Assembly: GCF_022879575.1 (NCBI RefSeq)
Contig: NZ_CP084260.1
Location: forward strand, 868,001-932,000
Source: Caballeronia sp. SL2Y3
GTDB taxonomy: Bacteria > Pseudomonadota > Gammaproteobacteria > Burkholderiales > Burkholderiaceae
Reading direction: 5' to 3'
Length of the DNA stretch: 64,000 bases
Under the pieces are notes generated by a model. That model had not been told where the DNA came from and ran no database searches. It saw nothing but the letters and a program-made list of their open reading frames with translations. How positions within the stretch are numbered: the stretch's first letter is position 1; every line of letters begins with the position of its first letter. Both the position numbers and the translations under genes were made by a program. Positions 54,401 to 62,967 of this stretch are shown here, piece after piece.

Positions 54401-54798
54401 ATTATCTGTCGGCGTGGCTCGCGCATCTGGCCTATTGCGCGGCGCTGCCGGACGGTCCGCGCCGCACCATCTGGCATGGGCGCGGCGCGCAGTCGGCGGA
54501 TTTCGAACTCGCGCCCGTCGCCGATCCGCTCGCGCATCTCGGCACGCTCGCGGCGCTGTATCGCGCGGGACGGCGCATGCCGCTGCGTTTCTATCCGAAG
54601 AGCGCATGGCTCAAGCTGACCGAAGGCGATGTCAAAGCGCAGGCCGCGTGGGAGTCCGATCGCACGCGCGCCGAGTCCGACGATCCGGCGTATCGCATCG
54701 CGTTTCGCGGTGAATCATTAAAGCTCGACGAACGCTTCGCCGCGCTGGCGCGCGTCGTGTTCGAACCGCTTCGAGAGCATCTGCGGAGCGGCGCATGA
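51406..54798 (+). CDS. recC: Exodeoxyribonuclease V subunit gamma (RecC)
   Basis: Subunit of RecBCD that splits the duplex and reads Chi. The 1130-aa protein has the degenerate helicase fold of RecC: MLELFYSNRHETLAAALFEDL at the start, VPSAAVRRRLELDMAERFGICANVQF, EVHVCHSLSRQLEVLHDRLLDWF, FSSLTSLRGLPYRVVCLLGMDDG and PLPPEEDEDIVAFDDFVRFWRHPARALLRDRLGI, all matching conserved RecC blocks. Length is normal. Its last codon overlaps the recB start (ATGA), so the pair is coupled. Confidence 0.95.
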   Translation: MLELFYSNRHETLAAALFEDLDAFAMRESDPFASEAVIVPSAAVRRRLELDMAERFGICANVQFCYLAQWLWAQIGRVLPVPAHSPFAPDRLAWRCYRSFDEPAFREAPRLSTYLNAADDCMRYELARRIATVFDHYLTYRPEWLTHWQAGGSILAGGGAQIDARGPRLAGASDIQRQDEIWQAALWRALLEDLAAPDREHDPTPPAYRFLAEAPRFDLDTAMRAEWPRRISVFALPTMPPLHIALLRELSRWIDVRIYALNPCREFWFDIVSEARVEQLQLKGEADFQEVGHPLLAEWGRQTQAQLHMLNELTESAASSERELFEENPAPTWLARVQNGILTLDEDNASPLPEEIVDTGVEVHVCHSLSRQLEVLHDRLLDWFDSIEGLEPSDVLVAFPDLAVAGPLIDGIFGTAPAGASNERRRIPYRITGLPPSQANPVARAMLDWLALAERGVGAPELIEWLRVDAIATRYGIDAPSLETAQEWLAQAGARRGLRPDEVTSEHVPAARHTFADALTRLYLGYALPGGGAPVADWLPVEGPQGSEAELLGRLTRFIDDIDAFAKEIATPRTARAWGDLLLDALERFFDAGVAFNDTIGDVRHAIDALIAAIDEGARDTHVPAAVIRTALTDTLDDPARGGVPWGGVTFSSLTSLRGLPYRVVCLLGMDDGMLPSLTRADEFDLMARFGKLGDRQRRDDERNLFLDLMLAARDRLLIAYTGRSIRDNAVLPPAALIDELLDYLAQAVAGKHAAPEALREARALFVHEHPLQPFAPEYFEPGGRLFTYEPERAELARALAAGRTQNSPPFFDAPLPPEEDEDIVAFDDFVRFWRHPARALLRDRLGIALVDADAELDITEPFELGFAGRDALAARVLPSLLDATDDAAARARERARHVARTSPEMPGGATGAVWQAREMHALAHLADRIRVSVAEGVTRLPFVLDIAPRWPDTAGVPLFEKYDDALIDERPFTLAGTLNRLTPQGQVIYRYDQPRARDYLSAWLAHLAYCAALPDGPRRTIWHGRGAQSADFELAPVADPLAHLGTLAALYRAGRRMPLRFYPKSAWLKLTEGDVKAQAAWESDRTRAESDDPAYRIAFRGESLKLDERFAALARVVFEPLREHLRSGA

Positions 54799-57700
54799 CC
54801 ACCATGACTGACGTTGTGAATCACGAAACCGTGCAGGAACTCGACGTCTTCGCGTGCCCGCTCGATGGCGTCAACCAGATTGAGGCGTCCGCCGGAACGG
54901 GTAAGACCTGGAACATCTGCGCGCTGTACGTGCGCCTGCTGCTGGAGAAGCAGTTGAGCGTCGAGCGCATTCTCGTCGTCACCTTCACGAAGGCCGCGAC
55001 CGCGGAGCTGCACGAGCGCATCCGCACGCGGCTCGCGGGTGTCGCGCATGCGATCGAAAACGGCGACGCGGCGGGCGATCCGTTCATCGAGCGGCTCTTC
55101 GAAACCACGCTCGAACAGATGGACCCGGACGAGGCGCTGCAACGCATCCGCATCGCGCTGCATAGCTTCGATCAGGCCGCGATCCACACGATCCACGGGT
55201 TCTGCCAGCGCGCGCTGCAGGAAGCGCCGTTCGCCGCTGCGATGCCGTTCGCGTTCGACATGGAAGCCGACGACAGCACGCTGCGCTTCGAACTCGCCGC
55301 CGATTTCTGGCGCGAGCGCGTCGAGCCGGCGGCGGCGCGCGTGCCTTCGTTTGCATCGTGGCTGGTCGCGAAAGGCGCTGGCCCGGCATCGCTCGATGCG
55401 CAGCTCGCGCGCCGCCTGAAGAAACCGCTCGCGACGCTGCGCTGGGGTAGTTTCGCCGAAGTACAAGCCGCAGAAGCCGCCGACGCCAAAGCGCTTTTCG
55501 ATGAAGCCTGCGCGCTATGGCACGCCGAGCGCGACGCGATCGCGGAGCTGCTCTTCGACGCCGAGGCCATGCTGAAGCAGACCTCGCACAAGCGGTCGAT
55601 GATCGAAGCGGCCATCGACGCGTGGGCCGAGTATTTCGCCGATGCCGACTGTCACGCGCCGCCGCCGAAAGACGCGCTGAAGATCACCGCGTCGGCGCTC
55701 GCGAAGGGCACGAAGGTCAAGCACACGCCGCCCGCGCATCCGTTTTTCGAGCACGCGGAGACGCTTGCCGCGGCGGCCGCTGCTGCGGAAGCGTCGCAGC
55801 GCGCGCTGTGGCTCGATATCGTGCGGGAGTGGCTCGACTACGCGCCGGCCGAGTTGTCGGCGAGAAAGCGCGCGCGCCGCGTCGTCTCGTTCGACGACCT
55901 GCTCTCGAACCTGCATCACGCGCTCGTCAAACATGCGTGGCTTGCCGAGGCGCTGCGCGAGCGTTATCCGGCGGCGCTCATCGACGAGTTTCAGGACACG
56001 GACCCGCTGCAATACGCCATCTTCAATCGCGTGTTCGCGCCGCACGGGCCGCTTTTTCTCGTCGGCGATCCGAAGCAGGCCATCTACAGCTTTCGCGCCG
56101 CCGATCTGCACACGTATCTCGCGGCGCGCGAGGGCGCGAGCGCGCGCTACACGCTCGCGGTGAACCAGCGGTCGACTGCGCGCATCATCGAGGCGTGCAA
56201 TCGCGTGTTCGGCGCGAATCCGTCGGCGTTCATCCTCGAAGGGCTCGACTATCAGCCGGTGCGCGCCGGCACGCGCTCGCGTGGGCCGTTCGTCGATGCA
56301 ACGCCCGCCGCCGCGTATTCCGACCTCGCTGATTTTTGCGTGTGGATGCTGCCGCACGGCGATTCGGCGCTCTCGAAGGGCAACGCGCAGCGCGATGCGG
56401 CCGAAGCCTGCGCCGCCGAAATTGCGCGGCTCTTGCGCGGCGCGCAACGCGGCGAAGTGCGCATCGGCGACGAGCCGCTTCGCGCGGGGGATATTGCGGT
56501 GCTCGTGCAGACGCACCGGCAGGGCAGCATGGTGAAGCGCGTGCTCGCGGCGTGGGGCGTCGGCAGCGTGGAACTGGCGCAGGCGTCGGTGTTCGGCTCG
56601 CTCGACGCCGAGCAGATCGAGCGCGTGCTCGCCGCCATCGACACGCCGGGCGATTTGCGGCGGCTGCGCGCCGCGCTCGCGACCGACTGGTTCGGGCTCG
56701 ATGCTGGCGCGCTTTGGCGTCTGGAACATGCGGTGTCCGCAGCGGATTCGAACGACGGACCGAACGACTCCACGAGCTGGGTCGAGCGTTTTTCGCGCTA
56801 CCGCACCATTTGGCACGAGCGCGGCTTCGCGGTGATGTGGCGCACGCTGACGCGCGAACTGTCGATCGCCGCGCGCCTCGTCACGCGGCCGGACGGCGAG
56901 CGCAGGCTCACGAACATCACCCATCTCGCGGAACTGTTGCAGGCGCGTTCGGCCGAGCAGCCCGGCATCGCGCCGACGCTGCGCTGGCTCGCCGCGCAGC
57001 GCGCGCAGCAAGGCGGCGGCGAGGACGCGCAGTTGCGGCTGGAATCGGACCGCAATCTCGTGCAGATTGTGACGATTCACAAGTCGAAAGGGCTGGAGTA
57101 CGCGGTCGTGTTCTGCCCGTTCCTCAACGACGGCGCATCGCGCGACGCGCCGAAGTCCGGCTTGCCCGACGCCAGCGAGTATCACGACGAAGCGGGCGAG
57201 GCGGTGCTGCACTACGGCATCGACGAGGACGAATCGAAGGAGGTGAGCGCCGCCATCGCCCGCGAGCAGGCGGCGGAACGCGCGCGCCTCGTCTACGTGG
57301 CGCTGACGCGGGCGGTGTATCGCTGCTACGTCGTCGCGGGCGTGTATATGTCGAATGTCTCGAACAAGTCGACGAAGGAGTCGCGGCGAAGCGTGCTCAA
57401 CTGGCTCGTCGCGGGCGCGGGGCAGGACTTCGACGCGTTCTGCGAAGAGCCGCCCGACGAAGCGGGCATCGTCGCGGCGTGGCACGCGCTGGAAGCACAA
57501 GCGGATGGCGCGATCGGCGTGGCGCCGTTGCCGGTGATCGGCGCGCGGGAGCCGCTCGCCGCCGAGGCCGCGGGGCCGCACGCGATGACCGCGCGCACCA
57601 ATCAGCGCCTGTTGCGCGATCGCTGGCGCATGGCGAGCTTCAGTTCGCTGATCGCGGCGGGCGCCCGCGACGAGGCGAATCAGCCGCAGCCGGTCGACGC

Positions 57701-58526
57701 GCGGCCCGATCACGACGAACTGGCGGACCTCGATGTGCCGGTTCTACAGCAAGCCGCCCCGCGCGACGAGACGGCGCTCGCCGACGACGACATCCTCGCG
57801 TTTCCGCGCGGCGCGGCGGCGGGGGAATGTCTGCATCGCATGTACGAACTGGCGGACTTCACGCAGCCCGCGACCTGGCCCGATGCGATCGACCGTGCGC
57901 TGCGCGAGCATCCGACGCCCGCGCCCGAGCCGCTCGCCCGGCGTCTTCGGCCGATGATGCAGCGCCTGCTCGCCGATACGCTTTCGACCGAGATCGCGCC
58001 GGGTCTTCGGCTGTCGCGGATTCCGCCCGCGCGTCGCATGAACGAACTGGAGTTTCTGTTTCCCGCGCCGTCGCTGGACTTCGCGGCGCTGCGGCGGATT
58101 CTCGCCGCGCACGGCTATCCCGACGTCGCGCTGGAAGCGGGCGCGTTGCGGGGCTTTATCAAGGGGTTCATCGACATGATCGTGGAGCACGACGGGCGCT
58201 ACTGGATCATCGACTGGAAGTCGAATTATCTCGGCGAGCGCGCCGCGGATTACAGCGCCGCGCCGCTCGCCGAAGCGATGGCGCATCACGCGTACCACCT
58301 TCAGGCGCTCGTGTATGTGGTGGCGCTGCACCGGTATCTGCGCGCGCGGCTCGCTGCGTACGACTATGAGACGCACGTCGGCGGCTATCTGTATTTGTTC
58401 GTGCGTGGCGTGCGGCCCGATTGGCGCGACGGCGACAGCGGCGCGCCGAGCGGCGTGCATCGCGGACGGCCGCCGCTCGCGCTCGTCGAGGCGCTCGACC
58501 GGCTGATGTTTGGAGGCGTGGCATGA
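54795..58526 (+). CDS. recB: Exodeoxyribonuclease V subunit beta (RecB)
   Basis: 3'-5' helicase and nuclease subunit of RecBCD. The 1243-aa protein has Walker A IEASAGTGKTWNICALY (about 29-45), LVVTFTKAATAELHERIR, the DEFQDTDPLQYAIF motif (Walker B), VTIHKSKGLEYAVVFCP, and VYVALTRA. The C-terminal nuclease domain shows HRMYEL, YWIIDWKSNYLG (catalytic Asp and Lys) and HHAYHLQALVY. Its ATG at 54795 overlaps recC. The last residues ALDRLMFGGVA and the stop are the unit repeated several times downstream. Confidence 0.96.
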   Translation: MTTMTDVVNHETVQELDVFACPLDGVNQIEASAGTGKTWNICALYVRLLLEKQLSVERILVVTFTKAATAELHERIRTRLAGVAHAIENGDAAGDPFIERLFETTLEQMDPDEALQRIRIALHSFDQAAIHTIHGFCQRALQEAPFAAAMPFAFDMEADDSTLRFELAADFWRERVEPAAARVPSFASWLVAKGAGPASLDAQLARRLKKPLATLRWGSFAEVQAAEAADAKALFDEACALWHAERDAIAELLFDAEAMLKQTSHKRSMIEAAIDAWAEYFADADCHAPPPKDALKITASALAKGTKVKHTPPAHPFFEHAETLAAAAAAAEASQRALWLDIVREWLDYAPAELSARKRARRVVSFDDLLSNLHHALVKHAWLAEALRERYPAALIDEFQDTDPLQYAIFNRVFAPHGPLFLVGDPKQAIYSFRAADLHTYLAAREGASARYTLAVNQRSTARIIEACNRVFGANPSAFILEGLDYQPVRAGTRSRGPFVDATPAAAYSDLADFCVWMLPHGDSALSKGNAQRDAAEACAAEIARLLRGAQRGEVRIGDEPLRAGDIAVLVQTHRQGSMVKRVLAAWGVGSVELAQASVFGSLDAEQIERVLAAIDTPGDLRRLRAALATDWFGLDAGALWRLEHAVSAADSNDGPNDSTSWVERFSRYRTIWHERGFAVMWRTLTRELSIAARLVTRPDGERRLTNITHLAELLQARSAEQPGIAPTLRWLAAQRAQQGGGEDAQLRLESDRNLVQIVTIHKSKGLEYAVVFCPFLNDGASRDAPKSGLPDASEYHDEAGEAVLHYGIDEDESKEVSAAIAREQAAERARLVYVALTRAVYRCYVVAGVYMSNVSNKSTKESRRSVLNWLVAGAGQDFDAFCEEPPDEAGIVAAWHALEAQADGAIGVAPLPVIGAREPLAAEAAGPHAMTARTNQRLLRDRWRMASFSSLIAAGARDEANQPQPVDARPDHDELADLDVPVLQQAAPRDETALADDDILAFPRGAAAGECLHRMYELADFTQPATWPDAIDRALREHPTPAPEPLARRLRPMMQRLLADTLSTEIAPGLRLSRIPPARRMNELEFLFPAPSLDFAALRRILAAHGYPDVALEAGALRGFIKGFIDMIVEHDGRYWIIDWKSNYLGERAADYSAAPLAEAMAHHAYHLQALVYVVALHRYLRARLAAYDYETHVGGYLYLFVRGVRPDWRDGDSGAPSGVHRGRPPLALVEALDRLMFGGVA

Positions 58527-58977
58527 GCAAGGTCCAGTTGTACGCGCTGGCGTCGCGCTTCGCGGATGAAGGCGGCGCGCTCGACGGGCTCATTTGCGGA
58601 GGTGTGGCATGAGCACGATTCGGTTGAACGCGCCGACATCGCGCTTTGCCGACGAAAGCGCCGCTCTCCGGCGGCTGATGTGCGGAGGCGTGGCATGAGC
58701 ACGATGGACCGGAACGCGCCGACATCGCGCTCCGCGGTTAAAAGCGCCGCGCTCGACCGGCCGATGTGCGGAGGCGTGGCATGGGCACGATGAAACCGGA
58801 ACGCGCGGACATCGCGCTTCTCGGACGAAGGCGCTGCGCTCGACCGGCTGATGTGCGGAGGCACGGCATGAGCACGATGGACGTCAATGCGCCGGTATGG
58901 CGTATAGCGGAGAAAAGCGCGGAGAAAAGCGCGGCGTTCGCCAAGGCGCTGGACCGGCCGATGTGCGGAGGCGTGAC
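58505..58977 (+). repeat. Tandem copies of the recB-recD gene junction
   Basis: Five units lead into recD. Their ATG codons are at 58523, 58609, 58695, 58781 and 58868, and recD follows at 58978. Unit lengths are 86, 86, 86, 87 and 110 bp. Each unit starts like RecD (MSTMDLNAPASRFADES) and ends like RecB (ALDRLMCGGVA) with GGAGG a few bases before the next ATG. Small ORFs therefore chain without a gap: 58523-58612 (29 aa), 58609-58698 (29 aa), 58695-58793 (32 aa), 58781-58996 (71 aa), then recD. The first two end in ATGA overlaps. Unit 4 also holds a short internal duplication. Whether the peptides are made is unknown. Confidence 0.93.
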
Positions 58978-61689
58978 ATGCGCACGATGGACCTGAACGC
59001 GCCGGCATCGCGCTTCGCGGACGAAAGCGCTGCGCTCGCCGAAGGCTTTGCGCGGCGCATGGCCGAACTGTCGCGGCGCTCGGGTGCGAGCGCGGATGCC
59101 GTCGCATGGGCCGAACGCGCGGCGCTCGCGATCAGCAGTGCGACCGCGCTCGGGCACGTCTGCATGCCGCTCGCGGCGCTCGCGCGCCGTCACGGCGGGC
59201 GACCGCGCGAGGTCCGCGAGGCGCTGCTCGCGAGCGGCGTCGCGAGCCTCGCGCGCACGCAGTCGCCCATGCACGCGGCGGATTTGCGGCCGCTCGTCAT
59301 CGACGAGGACGGCCGGCTCTATCTCGCGCGTTACTTCGACTACGAGCGGCGGCTCGCGCTTGCGCTCGTCGAGCGGGCGCAGGCCGCGCGGGTGACGGTG
59401 TCCGGGCGCGAGCTGGCGGCGCACGCCGAGCGCATCGCGCGCTATTTCGGGCCGAGCGCGGGCGATGACATCGACTGGCAACGGGTCGCGGCGCTCGTGG
59501 CGCTGGCGGGACGGCTGACCATCGTGAGCGGCGGTCCGGGCACGGGCAAGACGACGACGGTGGTCGGCGTGCTGGCCTGTCTGCTCGACGCCGATCCCAA
59601 CCTGCGCATCGCGCTTGCCGCGCCGACCGGCAAGGCCGCGCAGCGCATGCAGGAGGCGCTGATCGAGCGCGCGGACAAGCTCCCGCCCGAACTCGCGCAA
59701 CGCTTGCCGCGCACGTCGTTCACGCTGCAGCGACTGCTGGGCGTGCTGCCGGACGGCGGCTTCCGGCACCATCGGGACAATCCGCTGCCGTACGACGTTA
59801 TCGTCGTCGATGAAGCGTCGATGATCGATGTCGCGCTCGCGGCGCATCTGCTAGAAGCGGTCGCGCCGACGAGCCGGCTCGTGATGCTCGGCGACAAAGA
59901 CCAGCTTTCCGCGGTCGAAGCGGGCGCGGTCTTCGCGGAACTGAGCGCGCAGCCATCGTTCAGCCAGGGCGGCGCGCGTCGCATTGCCGAGGCGCTCGGC
60001 GTGGACTATGCGCGGTTGCGGGCGGCGTTGCCGTCGGGTTCGCCTTGGGTTTCGTCGTCAGACGACGATTCGGACAGCGAAGCGATCGGCGCGGGGCTTG
60101 TGGCGACCCAGAGCGCAGACGACGGAGACTTGTTCGCGCCGCGAGACGCGCGACGCGATGAGCAAAGTCCCGTTGCGCCGGCCGGTAGGGCTGCGGCGTT
60201 GTCGTCGGGCTCGGCTTCGGTTTCGTCATCAGCGGACGATTTGGACGGCGAAGCGATCGCGGCGGGGCGTGCGGCGACCCAGAGCGCAGACGATGGAGAC
60301 TTGTTCGCGCCGCGAGACGCGCGACGCGATGAGCAAGCTCCCGTTGCGCCGGCCGGTAAGGCTGCGGCGTTGCGCGCGGGATCGGCGTCGCGCACGCAAG
60401 CCGTTTTCGATGACGAAGGCTACGCCGACCTTTTCGCCACCATCGATACCGAGACGTATCCGGAAGACGAAGGTAGCGACGGTGCGCGGCGGAACGTGGA
60501 CGACGAGCGAATTCAGCAAAAGGCGCCGAACAAGCGCAATGAGCGGGACGAAAACGCGGGGCGCGAACGGCGGAACGAGCTTAACGAGCTTAACGAGCAA
60601 CGCGAGGGCGATCAGTCCGAGAAGCGCGACCGTCGAGTTGAGCGTGACAGGCGCGGCGAGCAAAACGCCGACAGCGAGCGTGACCGACGCAGTGAACAGG
60701 ACCGGCCCCAAGAGCACTACCGCCACAACGAGCGCAACGGCAGAAACCTGCACCACGGCCACAACAAGCATGACGAGCAAAGGAGGCGCACCGGGCCCGA
60801 CGATGCAGACCACACCGACGCCCCGCTCACCGACTGCGTCGTCTGGCTCGCGCGCAACTACCGCTTCGGGCTGGATTCGGCGATCGGCCGCTTGTCGATC
60901 GCCATCCGCGACGGCGATGCGCAAGCTGCCCTCGCCGCGCTCGATATCCGGCAATCGCCCGCGACGAGTGACGACGCAGCCGCCGTGCTTTTCGACGACG
61001 CGCACACCACGCTCTCCGAGCGCACGCTCGCGCATCTGGCAACAGGATTTGCGCCGTACGCCGACGCGCTCTCGTCCGTACTCGAGGCGCGGCGCTCGAA
61101 TTCAGTCGGCGCACAAAACGACGAAGCCCGGCTCTTTGACGCGCTGAACCGCTTTCGCCTGCTATGCGCGACGCGCAAAGGCCCGCGCGGCGTCGACGAA
61201 GTGAACGCCCGCATCGCGGCGAAAGTGCGGGAGCAGGCGGGCATTGCGCTTGCGCTCGGCGCACAATGGTTCGCCGGGCGGCCGGTGATCGTCACGCGCA
61301 ACGACTACGCGCTCGGGCTTTTCAACGGCGATATCGGCATCGCGCTGCCGGGCGCGGACGGCGCGCTGCGGGTGGCATTCCGCATGGCCGACGGCTCCTT
61401 GCGCTACGTCTCGCCCGCCGCGCTTCCGCCGCACGATACGGCGTTCGCGCTCACGGTCCACAAGTCGCAGGGATCGGAGTTCGACGAGGCGGCGCTCGTC
61501 CTGCCGGGGAGCTTTGTGCGCGTGCTGTCGCGCGAACTCGTCTACACGGCCATCACGCGGGCCAAGCGCCGGGTCGAGGTGATCGGCTCGGCGGATATCT
61601 TCGCGCAGGCGGTCGATGCGCCGACGCGCCGCGATTCCGGCCTCGCGGCGAGAATGCGGCGGTTGATGAGCGCGAGCGCCGGGGCTTGA
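58978..61689 (+). CDS. recD: Exodeoxyribonuclease V subunit alpha (RecD) with disordered insertion
   Basis: 5'-3' helicase subunit of RecBCD. Walker A GGPGTGKTTTV is at about 183-193, Walker B VVDEASMIDVAL near 275-290, then GDKDQLSAVEAG. The C-terminal motifs LTVHKSQGSEFDEAALVLP and VYTAITRAKRRVEVIG are intact. At 903 aa it is far longer than usual (about 600-700). A charged, low-complexity insertion of about 260 residues (about 350-615) lies between DYARLRAALPSG and TDCVVWLARNYRFGLDSAIG, sites that are close together in E. coli RecD. Two 57-residue repeats sit inside it. The start at 58978 (MRTMDLNAP) has GGAGG upstream; 58987 is an alternative. Confidence 0.93.
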   Translation: MRTMDLNAPASRFADESAALAEGFARRMAELSRRSGASADAVAWAERAALAISSATALGHVCMPLAALARRHGGRPREVREALLASGVASLARTQSPMHAADLRPLVIDEDGRLYLARYFDYERRLALALVERAQAARVTVSGRELAAHAERIARYFGPSAGDDIDWQRVAALVALAGRLTIVSGGPGTGKTTTVVGVLACLLDADPNLRIALAAPTGKAAQRMQEALIERADKLPPELAQRLPRTSFTLQRLLGVLPDGGFRHHRDNPLPYDVIVVDEASMIDVALAAHLLEAVAPTSRLVMLGDKDQLSAVEAGAVFAELSAQPSFSQGGARRIAEALGVDYARLRAALPSGSPWVSSSDDDSDSEAIGAGLVATQSADDGDLFAPRDARRDEQSPVAPAGRAAALSSGSASVSSSADDLDGEAIAAGRAATQSADDGDLFAPRDARRDEQAPVAPAGKAAALRAGSASRTQAVFDDEGYADLFATIDTETYPEDEGSDGARRNVDDERIQQKAPNKRNERDENAGRERRNELNELNEQREGDQSEKRDRRVERDRRGEQNADSERDRRSEQDRPQEHYRHNERNGRNLHHGHNKHDEQRRRTGPDDADHTDAPLTDCVVWLARNYRFGLDSAIGRLSIAIRDGDAQAALAALDIRQSPATSDDAAAVLFDDAHTTLSERTLAHLATGFAPYADALSSVLEARRSNSVGAQNDEARLFDALNRFRLLCATRKGPRGVDEVNARIAAKVREQAGIALALGAQWFAGRPVIVTRNDYALGLFNGDIGIALPGADGALRVAFRMADGSLRYVSPAALPPHDTAFALTVHKSQGSEFDEAALVLPGSFVRVLSRELVYTAITRAKRRVEVIGSADIFAQAVDAPTRRDSGLAARMRRLMSASAGA
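60028..60390 (+). repeat. Two 171-bp tandem repeats inside recD
   Basis: Copies start at 60028 and 60199, 171 bp (57 codons) apart; a partial third starts at 60370. The repeated peptide includes ATQSADDGDLFAPRDARRDEQ and PVAPAG. After it comes a charged stretch rich in Asn, Glu, Arg and His, with NELNELNEQ and repeated RDRR-like groups. All of it lies in the RecD insertion and stays in frame. Confidence 0.93.
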
Positions 61690-62127: not shown

Positions 62128-62967
62128 AGCGAGGCGGAGCGCCAAAAGGCAAGCTCGATGACGGCCGCCGCCCGTGTCGTTCGAGAGAGCATCGCGAGCG
62201 GGAAGTGCTTGTTGCTTCGCGTGCGCGACGAGTAGAGCGGGAAGATGCGCCAAGCGCTCCATGACGTCCGCCGCCAGTGTCGTTTGCGCGCGCATCGTGA
62301 GCGGGACGTGCTCGTGGCTTCTAATGCGCCGGGAGAGCCGAGCGCGGATGCCGAGCCGGCATCCGCTCGACAGTTCCGGTGGCCAGCGCCGTGCCCGCGA
62401 GCATAACTCCGCATCACTTCAAGCTCACGAGCAACACGTGATCATCGGGAATGGCGGCGGCCTGCCCTGCGCCGCGAAAGCGGAGAGCGAACCCGCGCGA
62501 CTCGTTCAAACGGGCGGAAGGAACTGCGCGACACCGCCTGTCGCCGCGTTGGACCGCATCCGCTCGACGACAGGCGTCGCGGGAGCGGAGCGCGGCCTGC
62601 GCTGCGCCGCGAAAGTGAAGCGCAAACCCCCGCGACTTCATTCGAGCGGGCGGAAAGATGAGCGGGAAAACGCCTGTCGCGCGCTCGACGGCATCCGCTC
62701 AACAACGGGCGTCGCGGGAGCCGGGCGCGGATGCCGAGCCGGCATACACTCGACAACTCCACGGGGTCCTCTCGGGCGATCGCGTGGGCGTATTCGACAT
62801 TGCGACGCTCGACGCGAGCGGCGACACCGCGCAGGGAGGGCGGCCAGCGCCGTCCCCGCGCATCCTTCATCACGAGCGACACGCGTTTATCGAGAGAAGG
62901 TTAGGCCCGCACTGCGCCGCCGAAGCGAAGCGCGATGCCCCGCGACGCAGCGCAATGAGCCCGAAAA
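62113..62967. repeat. Decayed repeats related to the arfB and EamA gene ends
   Basis: About 840 bp without a supportable gene. It is built of degraded copies of nearby sequence. At 62113 and 62221 two copies, 108 bp apart, start with the arfB stop region. At about 62358-62452 a copy matches the EamA 3' end at 62998-63095 at roughly three quarters of positions, including GCCAGCGCCGTGCCCGCGAG. Related fragments appear near 62558, 62688 and 62838. A 135-bp unit starting CTGCGCCGCGAAAG is at 62467 and 62602, with a further relic at 62912. Long open frames here are accidental. Confidence 0.8.

Follow-up and report, generated by a model that had tools for sequence, protein, structure and literature searches.

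Among described systems, the gene pairs coupled by termination-reinitiation (TeRe) come closest to the junction reported here. In the sections of the two papers cited, coupling was found in 13 of the 14 overlapping pairs tested (PMC6728339), and in three E. coli pairs reinitiation was reduced by 80–100% at a distance of 38 nt and by variable amounts at shorter distances, while one pair reinitiates across 15 nt (PMC10666635). The recB–recD pair shares with the pairs described in those sections (PMC6728339, PMC10666635) an overlap of stop and start codons (ATGA/TGATG in those pairs), a Shine-Dalgarno sequence placed inside the upstream frame, and products that are subunits of one complex encoded in one operon. 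Unlike those pairs, the two genes studied here do not meet directly but have one to four tiny ORFs as a bridge between them, an arrangement known here from sequence.

Two broader categories also invite comparison. VNTR-like arrays are likewise built of head-to-tail copies whose units vary between relatives, but the present unit holds the stop/start junction, so that every copy makes a mini-ORF bounded at both ends. Leader or upstream ORFs are likewise short frames ahead of a gene, whereas this relay lies within an operon and separates the genes of two subunits, and neither a conserved peptide nor an attenuator structure was found in it. Among the matches listed in the open-licence PMC literature, none described this junction, such relays or the excess of tandem arrays reported below; in the cited part of a paper from 2025 that deals with E. 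coli RecB, the regulation of RecBCD expression is described as less known (PMC12342828).

A tandem array of recB–recD junctions

The window analysed here, a stretch of 64,000 nucleotides (G000:C1:868001-932000), comes from the 5.5-Mb genome of Caballeronia sp. SL2Y3 (genus g1) and contains recC, recB and recD adjoining one another, all above the cut-offs of their NCBIfam models (TIGR01450, TIGR00609 and TIGR01447). RecB (exodeoxyribonuclease V beta, 1243 aa) is encoded at 54795..58526 on the + strand (TIGR00609, 868 bits against a cut-off of 696), and RecD (exodeoxyribonuclease V alpha, 903 aa), the subunit that helps to decide whether the outcome of RecBCD action is DNA degradation or recombination, at 58978..61689 on the same strand (TIGR01447, 473 bits against 310). 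RecD carries a long linker insertion and measures 832–903 aa in the four genomes of the clade to which SL2Y3 belongs (the others being Caballeronia sp. M1242, Caballeronia sp. LZ062 and Burkholderia sp. 8Y), against 651–765 aa in the other loci measured; a 171-bp repeat (2.1 copies) lies within the insertion at 60022-60373.

Between the two genes, at 58491-58996, the recB–recD junction is copied head-to-tail. The array of 86-bp recD-head/recB-tail units (58491..58878, + strand) was detected by TRF (period 86, 4.5 copies, 80% match, score 452) and is also apparent as direct repeats (D1/D2) and in the unit alignment. Start codons at 58523, 58609, 58695, 58781, 58868 and 58978 are spaced by 86, 86, 86, 87 and 110 nt, and the direct-repeat copies in register by 86, 86, 87 and 110, which bears out the five tandem copies that an earlier note had read from the sequence. 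The unit alignment shows that each copy joins the first ~19 codons of recD in frame to the last ~10 codons of recB, which form the tail half of every unit, and that the join is identical in all three array species aligned. It also traces the 87-bp unit to a +1 insertion and the 110-bp unit (58868..58977, + strand) to a 24-bp in-frame insertion. As the note had also claimed, GGAGG and ATG are present in the window sequence at all six junction copies, the last being those of recD itself (58967..58980, + strand, with the start ATG at 58978 in the ORF list).

Close inspection of the sequence and the ORF list reveals four relay ORFs on the + strand, exactly at the coordinates first proposed for them. 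ORF 1 (29 aa, 58523..58612) overlaps the recB stop by ATGA and has GGAGG upstream, ORF 2 (29 aa, 58609..58698) and ORF 3 (32 aa, 58695..58793) each begin in a further ATGA overlap, and ORF 4 (71 aa, 58781..58996), which the unit alignment shows to cover the 87-bp and 110-bp units, runs 19 nt into recD. Stop and start codons had been said to overlap all the way from recB to recD. The chain of overlapping mini-ORFs stands, but only three of the five hand-overs are of the ATGA type (recB to ORF 1, 1 to 2 and 2 to 3): the ATGA is mutated to ATGG in the next unit, so that ORF 3 stops 13 nt into ORF 4, and ORF 4 overlaps by 19 nt a recD that starts with ATGC. Nor does every unit add a relay step, since the ATG at 58868 (the start of the 110-bp unit) is an internal in-frame Met of ORF 4. 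Measured against the overlap lengths used for TeRe pairs (4 or 1 nt), hand-overs at -4 account for 3/5 in the window and for 3/3 in both M1242 and LZ062. The Shine-Dalgarno sequence of TeRe pairs has its counterpart in the GGAGG of all six copies in the window, and in LZ062 in three of five, the missing ones belonging to two internal in-frame ATGs.

Searches of plasmid records gave no match. As a candidate for duplication-end microhomology we considered the 8-bp match GGCGCTCG, which the unduplicated junction of sp. 8Y has at a distance of 104; its 7-bp core occurs in locus L011 at a distance of 98, it does not figure among the matches listed for G039 or L012, and the candidate was not relied on.

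Distribution of the array and phasing of its chains

Searched with the RecB tail, 56 of 58 Caballeronia genomes gave a match, in several cases only to a distant RecB of ~37% identity, and the same search yielded 80 loci in named genomes. In all, 109 loci were tested (L007-L115), of which four lacked recD and 105, nearly all from Burkholderiaceae, with some species present twice and the window's own locus outside the set, carry recB and recD on the same strand. In 99 of these 105 the two genes are joined by one in-frame NTGA overlap (97 ATGA, 2 GTGA); the statement that recB and recD overlap once by ATGA in most proteobacteria holds for this set, with NTGA in place of ATGA and a scope of almost only Burkholderiaceae. 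When hand-overs of -12 to +3 nt were accepted, the 105 junctions divided into 99 direct, four relay and two gap loci; the gaps belong to spirochaete MAGs, and the relays to the array species M1242 and LZ062 and to two Trinickia species.

The arrays of the two relatives differ from that of SL2Y3. In M1242 the recB–recD gap is 601, and the chain runs from recB through ORFs of 144 and 58 aa to recD, with a 431-bp duplication that contains 64 RecB residues and one unit without its ATG; in LZ062 the gap is 337, the units measure 84, 86, 84 and 86 bp, and the chain passes through two ORFs of 57 aa. Both chains are closed by -4 hand-overs via two ORFs each. The number of intervals therefore varies between species, as had been suspected: five in SL2Y3, four in LZ062, units plus the 431-bp duplication in M1242, and none in sp. 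8Y, which lies inside the clade, is equally close and has a single junction with no array. The array's presence and phasing in close relatives, which the earlier note had named as its test, thus gave closed chains in M1242 and LZ062 and no array in sp. 8Y. Since sp. 8Y pairs with LZ062 in the recB DNA tree (support 92/93; the protein tree does not resolve the pairing), the array must have been lost there or gained twice. With an array protein from a further strain as query, three of the 58 Caballeronia genomes matched, namely SL2Y3, M1242 and LZ062, and mini-ORF proteins with unit sequence also occur in Caballeronia sp. BCC1704 and GAFFF1. The M1242 hypothetical protein JYK05_04360 (87 aa; L007:2595-2858), which joins the head of RecD to a duplicated tail of RecB, is an annotation by-product of the array.

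The path from recB to recD is closed in all three array species when a restart is accepted from 25 nt upstream to 10 nt downstream of a stop; at 3/3 and at 10/10 it is closed in M1242 and LZ062 and open in SL2Y3. Free shuffling of the substitutions at 25/10 left the chain closed in 18% (SL2Y3), 28% (M1242) and 24% (LZ062) of cases, a product of 0.012 (0.012–0.024 over the three species at wider settings), and shuffling with the ATGA columns protected in 48%, 51% and 44%, a product of 0.11. At 3/3, M1242 and LZ062 closed in 16% of shuffles each, and in 43% and 41% with ATGA protected. These products overstate the signal because the units have a common ancestry. Single indels placed in a consensus array were largely harmless (closed after +1 in 98%, after -2 in 99%, and after +2 and -1 in 73%), since the unit has one other open frame, which runs in frame into the next ATG. 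Closed phasing thus follows for the most part from the length of the unit (86 = 2 mod 3) and from a second stop-free frame, and the single-indel test and the ATGA-protected shuffles rule out chain closure as proof of selection.

Nor do the units show a clear coding constraint. Mean pairwise variation at the three codon positions was 0.208, 0.194 and 0.267 among 14 units, a slight third-position excess compared with the three- to four-fold excess in the coding controls, where it was 0.042, 0.042 and 0.175 at the recB end (4 of 10 pairs, the other 6 having been left out because their lengths differed) and 0.081, 0.094 and 0.317 in recD (6 pairs). With closure nearly automatic and the peptides unconserved, the intact phasing is a weak argument for a purpose. 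The ATG stretch (rank 11 of 84 for low variation) and the GGAGG stretch (8 of 82) are conserved, though not exceptionally so.

Tandem duplications in the clade and relays in other genera

To place the array in its genomic context, TRF arrays with a period of at least 40 were counted in 20-kb slices (clade slices L116-L195), excluding the recBCD slice. Per 380 kb, SL2Y3 has six, M1242 five, sp. 8Y six and LZ062 seven, whereas five other Caballeronia gave none in 380 kb (G035), 280 kb (G039) and 80 kb (G007), two in 180 kb (G017) and one in 180 kb (G034). The four clade genomes thus hold 24 arrays in 1520 kb against three in 1100 kb (ratio 5.8, p=5e-4); 78 named recBCD loci (958 kb, one from sp. 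8Y) contain five, and adding them gives 24 against eight in 2058 kb (ratio 4.1, p=2e-4). The clade therefore has an excess of 40–500 bp tandem duplications, about six times the level in the five other Caballeronia sampled, which makes the recB–recD array one case of a clade-wide process and accounts for its origin by slippage, a source the earlier note had suggested and which, as an origin, is well supported. Of the 24 arrays in the clade, at least six extend over a gene's 3' end, and five that were inspected repeat the gene end plus a spacer (two of them concern the same gene in two species).

The gene-3'-end arrays lie at L123:9108-10045, L162:3924-4583, L126:6682-7189, L141:6492-6864, L167:2525-3305 and L147:10993-11752 and affect an MFS transporter (in two species), a glycerate kinase, a pseudouridine synthase, a pyridine nucleotide-disulphide oxidoreductase and a LysR regulator, with a gene-end overlap of 107–111 bp in five of the six. 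Two tandem arrays also lie downstream of recD in the window, at 62153-62351 (period 103) and 62457-62730 (period 135), the second of which is common to SL2Y3 (2.0 copies) and M1242 (3.9 copies).

Bridged junctions are not confined to the clade. In the two Trinickia species of the 105-locus set, a 10-codon ORF with ATGA at both ends separates recB from recD. We then surveyed 60 genomes of the family, hand-picked (starting with the best Trinickia-like matches and going on to a range of genera) from the 94 that matched among 150. In g24, the genus of both Trinickia species (which are two of the genomes counted), nine junctions are relays and one is direct, an eleventh genome with only a distant RecB (G156) lying outside the survey; in g7, six of eight are relays and two are unbridged gaps; and g6, g8, g9, g10, g12, g14, g15, g16, g17 and g19 together have 39 direct junctions and three in which the recD frame was not found. 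Six Trinickia relays are exactly 10 aa long, although 8–81% of their 26 inner bases differ between pairs, and the remaining ones are 19, 28 and 27 aa, the last overlapping recD by 8 nt. The g7 relays begin 8 nt before the end of recB; four of them are 19 aa long and the other two 20 and 13 aa, and for the four of 19 aa the script called a GTG start of recD at -11, with a same-frame ATG at -8. The relay peptides differ between genera and mostly also within Trinickia. The two unbridged g7 genomes (L292 and L293) are reduced, at 1.2 Mb, and their junctions are possibly decaying; two of the six bridged g7 genomes are equally small.

Random spacers of these lengths would be closed in 17–29% of cases, and counting eight spacer lineages, six of them closed, gives a binomial p of 0.004–0.009, the number of independent events being our own judgement. 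As a control from the same operon, recC–recB is direct at 76 of 80 loci and bridged by a relay at none, in a set to which the three array species belong but which has just two Trinickia loci and none of g7 (the other four are unclassified 'gap' rows with ATGA visible, and two further loci lacked one gene). The third-base A of the last recB codon, invariant in nine Trinickia, was dropped as strong evidence, as three of 12 four-fold sites are invariant there too.

Possible roles of the relay

Overall, we lean towards the reading that tandem duplication made the array and that its geometry would let the coupling of RecD to RecB survive, with the coupling itself possibly kept by selection. The ancestral junction would have been a single ATGA overlap, duplicated in a clade prone to 40–500 bp duplications. 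As at other pairs of the ATGA type, a ribosome that finishes RecB would restart there on RecD. Because the 86-bp unit (2 mod 3) joins the first codons of recD in frame to the last codons of recB, each extra copy forms a mini-ORF with ATGA at both ends, and the ribosome could be passed unit by unit along the array to recD. Each additional hand-over may reduce RecD somewhat, and as recD retains its own GGAGG, some of the RecD may be made by direct initiation. Given the loss of 80–100% of reinitiation at 38 nt in the cited sections of PMC10666635, 86 nt inserted with no bridge can be expected to break the link between RecD and RecB translation, while an in-phase copy need not. We infer that spacers at recB–recD may be tolerated mainly when RecD translation remains coupled to that of RecB.

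The case for a role comes from beyond the window, from the relays at the same junction in Trinickia and g7. These raise the possibility that retention of coupling is selected, and they hint, short of proof, that the hand-over matters. Several observations count against this preferred reading: the last two hand-overs in SL2Y3 (-13 and -19) are of an uncommon kind and its chain is open at 10/10, two of the eight g7 genomes are unbridged, and sp. 8Y has no array. The near-automatic closure within the array, the small share of relay genera in the recC–recB control, and the reinitiation across 15 nt and variable losses at short distances in PMC10666635 weigh on the same side.

The strongest competitor, which we regard as a real though rather unlikely possibility, is neutral slippage, whereby the array is a junk spacer, the GGAGG of recD serves to start it and nothing follows from the chain being closed. 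The clade-wide excess of arrays, several of them on gene 3' ends, fits it, as do the weak codon-position signal of the units beside real coding sequence, the closure expected anyway from the shuffles and single indels, and the GGAGG retained at recD. Against it stand the closed relays of Trinickia and g7, where random spacers would close in a minority of cases, the absence of relays from the 80 recC–recB junctions and, less forcefully given the common ancestry of the units, the low product of the free shuffles.

A bolder version of the preferred reading is that recB–recD minicistron relays are a recurrent selected device in Burkholderiaceae, the number or quality of hand-overs setting the amount of RecD and hence of nuclease-active RecBCD; we put this forward only tentatively and think it unlikely. 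The same doubt attaches to its component claim that spacers, whatever their source (in Caballeronia a tandem duplication, in Trinickia an ORF of 10 codons and in a third genus one of ~19 codons), would be retained in a form able to carry ribosomes from RecB to RecD. Less probable still is the selected tuner proposed in the earlier note, in which unit number would set the RecD:RecB ratio and so the choice between nuclease-active RecBCD and recombination-active RecBC. Units do differ between species, and relays occur at recB–recD and not at recC–recB; yet other clade arrays also vary in copy number, the 135-bp array among them, sp. 8Y is a clade member without an array, and most internal sites of the unit look unconstrained.

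An assembly artefact or an RNA element is very improbable. Tandem repeats are prone to misassembly, but different arrays were found in other assemblies of few contigs (four for M1242, three for LZ062); a hidden RNA element, promoter or terminator was rejected, as an Rfam search at E 0.1 gave no match, a promoter and terminator search gave no hit, and six junctions folded into structures no more stable than those of their shuffles. Functional small proteins are hardly credible. Some mini-ORFs are annotated as hypothetical proteins in M1242, LZ062, BCC1704 and GAFFF1, but a peptide function was rejected on the codon-position variation, which shows no clear constraint; the relay peptides also vary from genus to genus and, for the most part, among the Trinickia, and those of the array are recD-head and recB-tail sequence.

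Nature thus offers recB–recD junctions in which the number of bridging ORFs is zero, one, two or four, a ready series with which to gauge how much coupling survives each hand-over, and the clade provides a natural system for the study of a genome prone to tandem duplication. At the other end of the window, a 162-bp repeat is present in four copies at 1446-2093, within or across putative ORFs.
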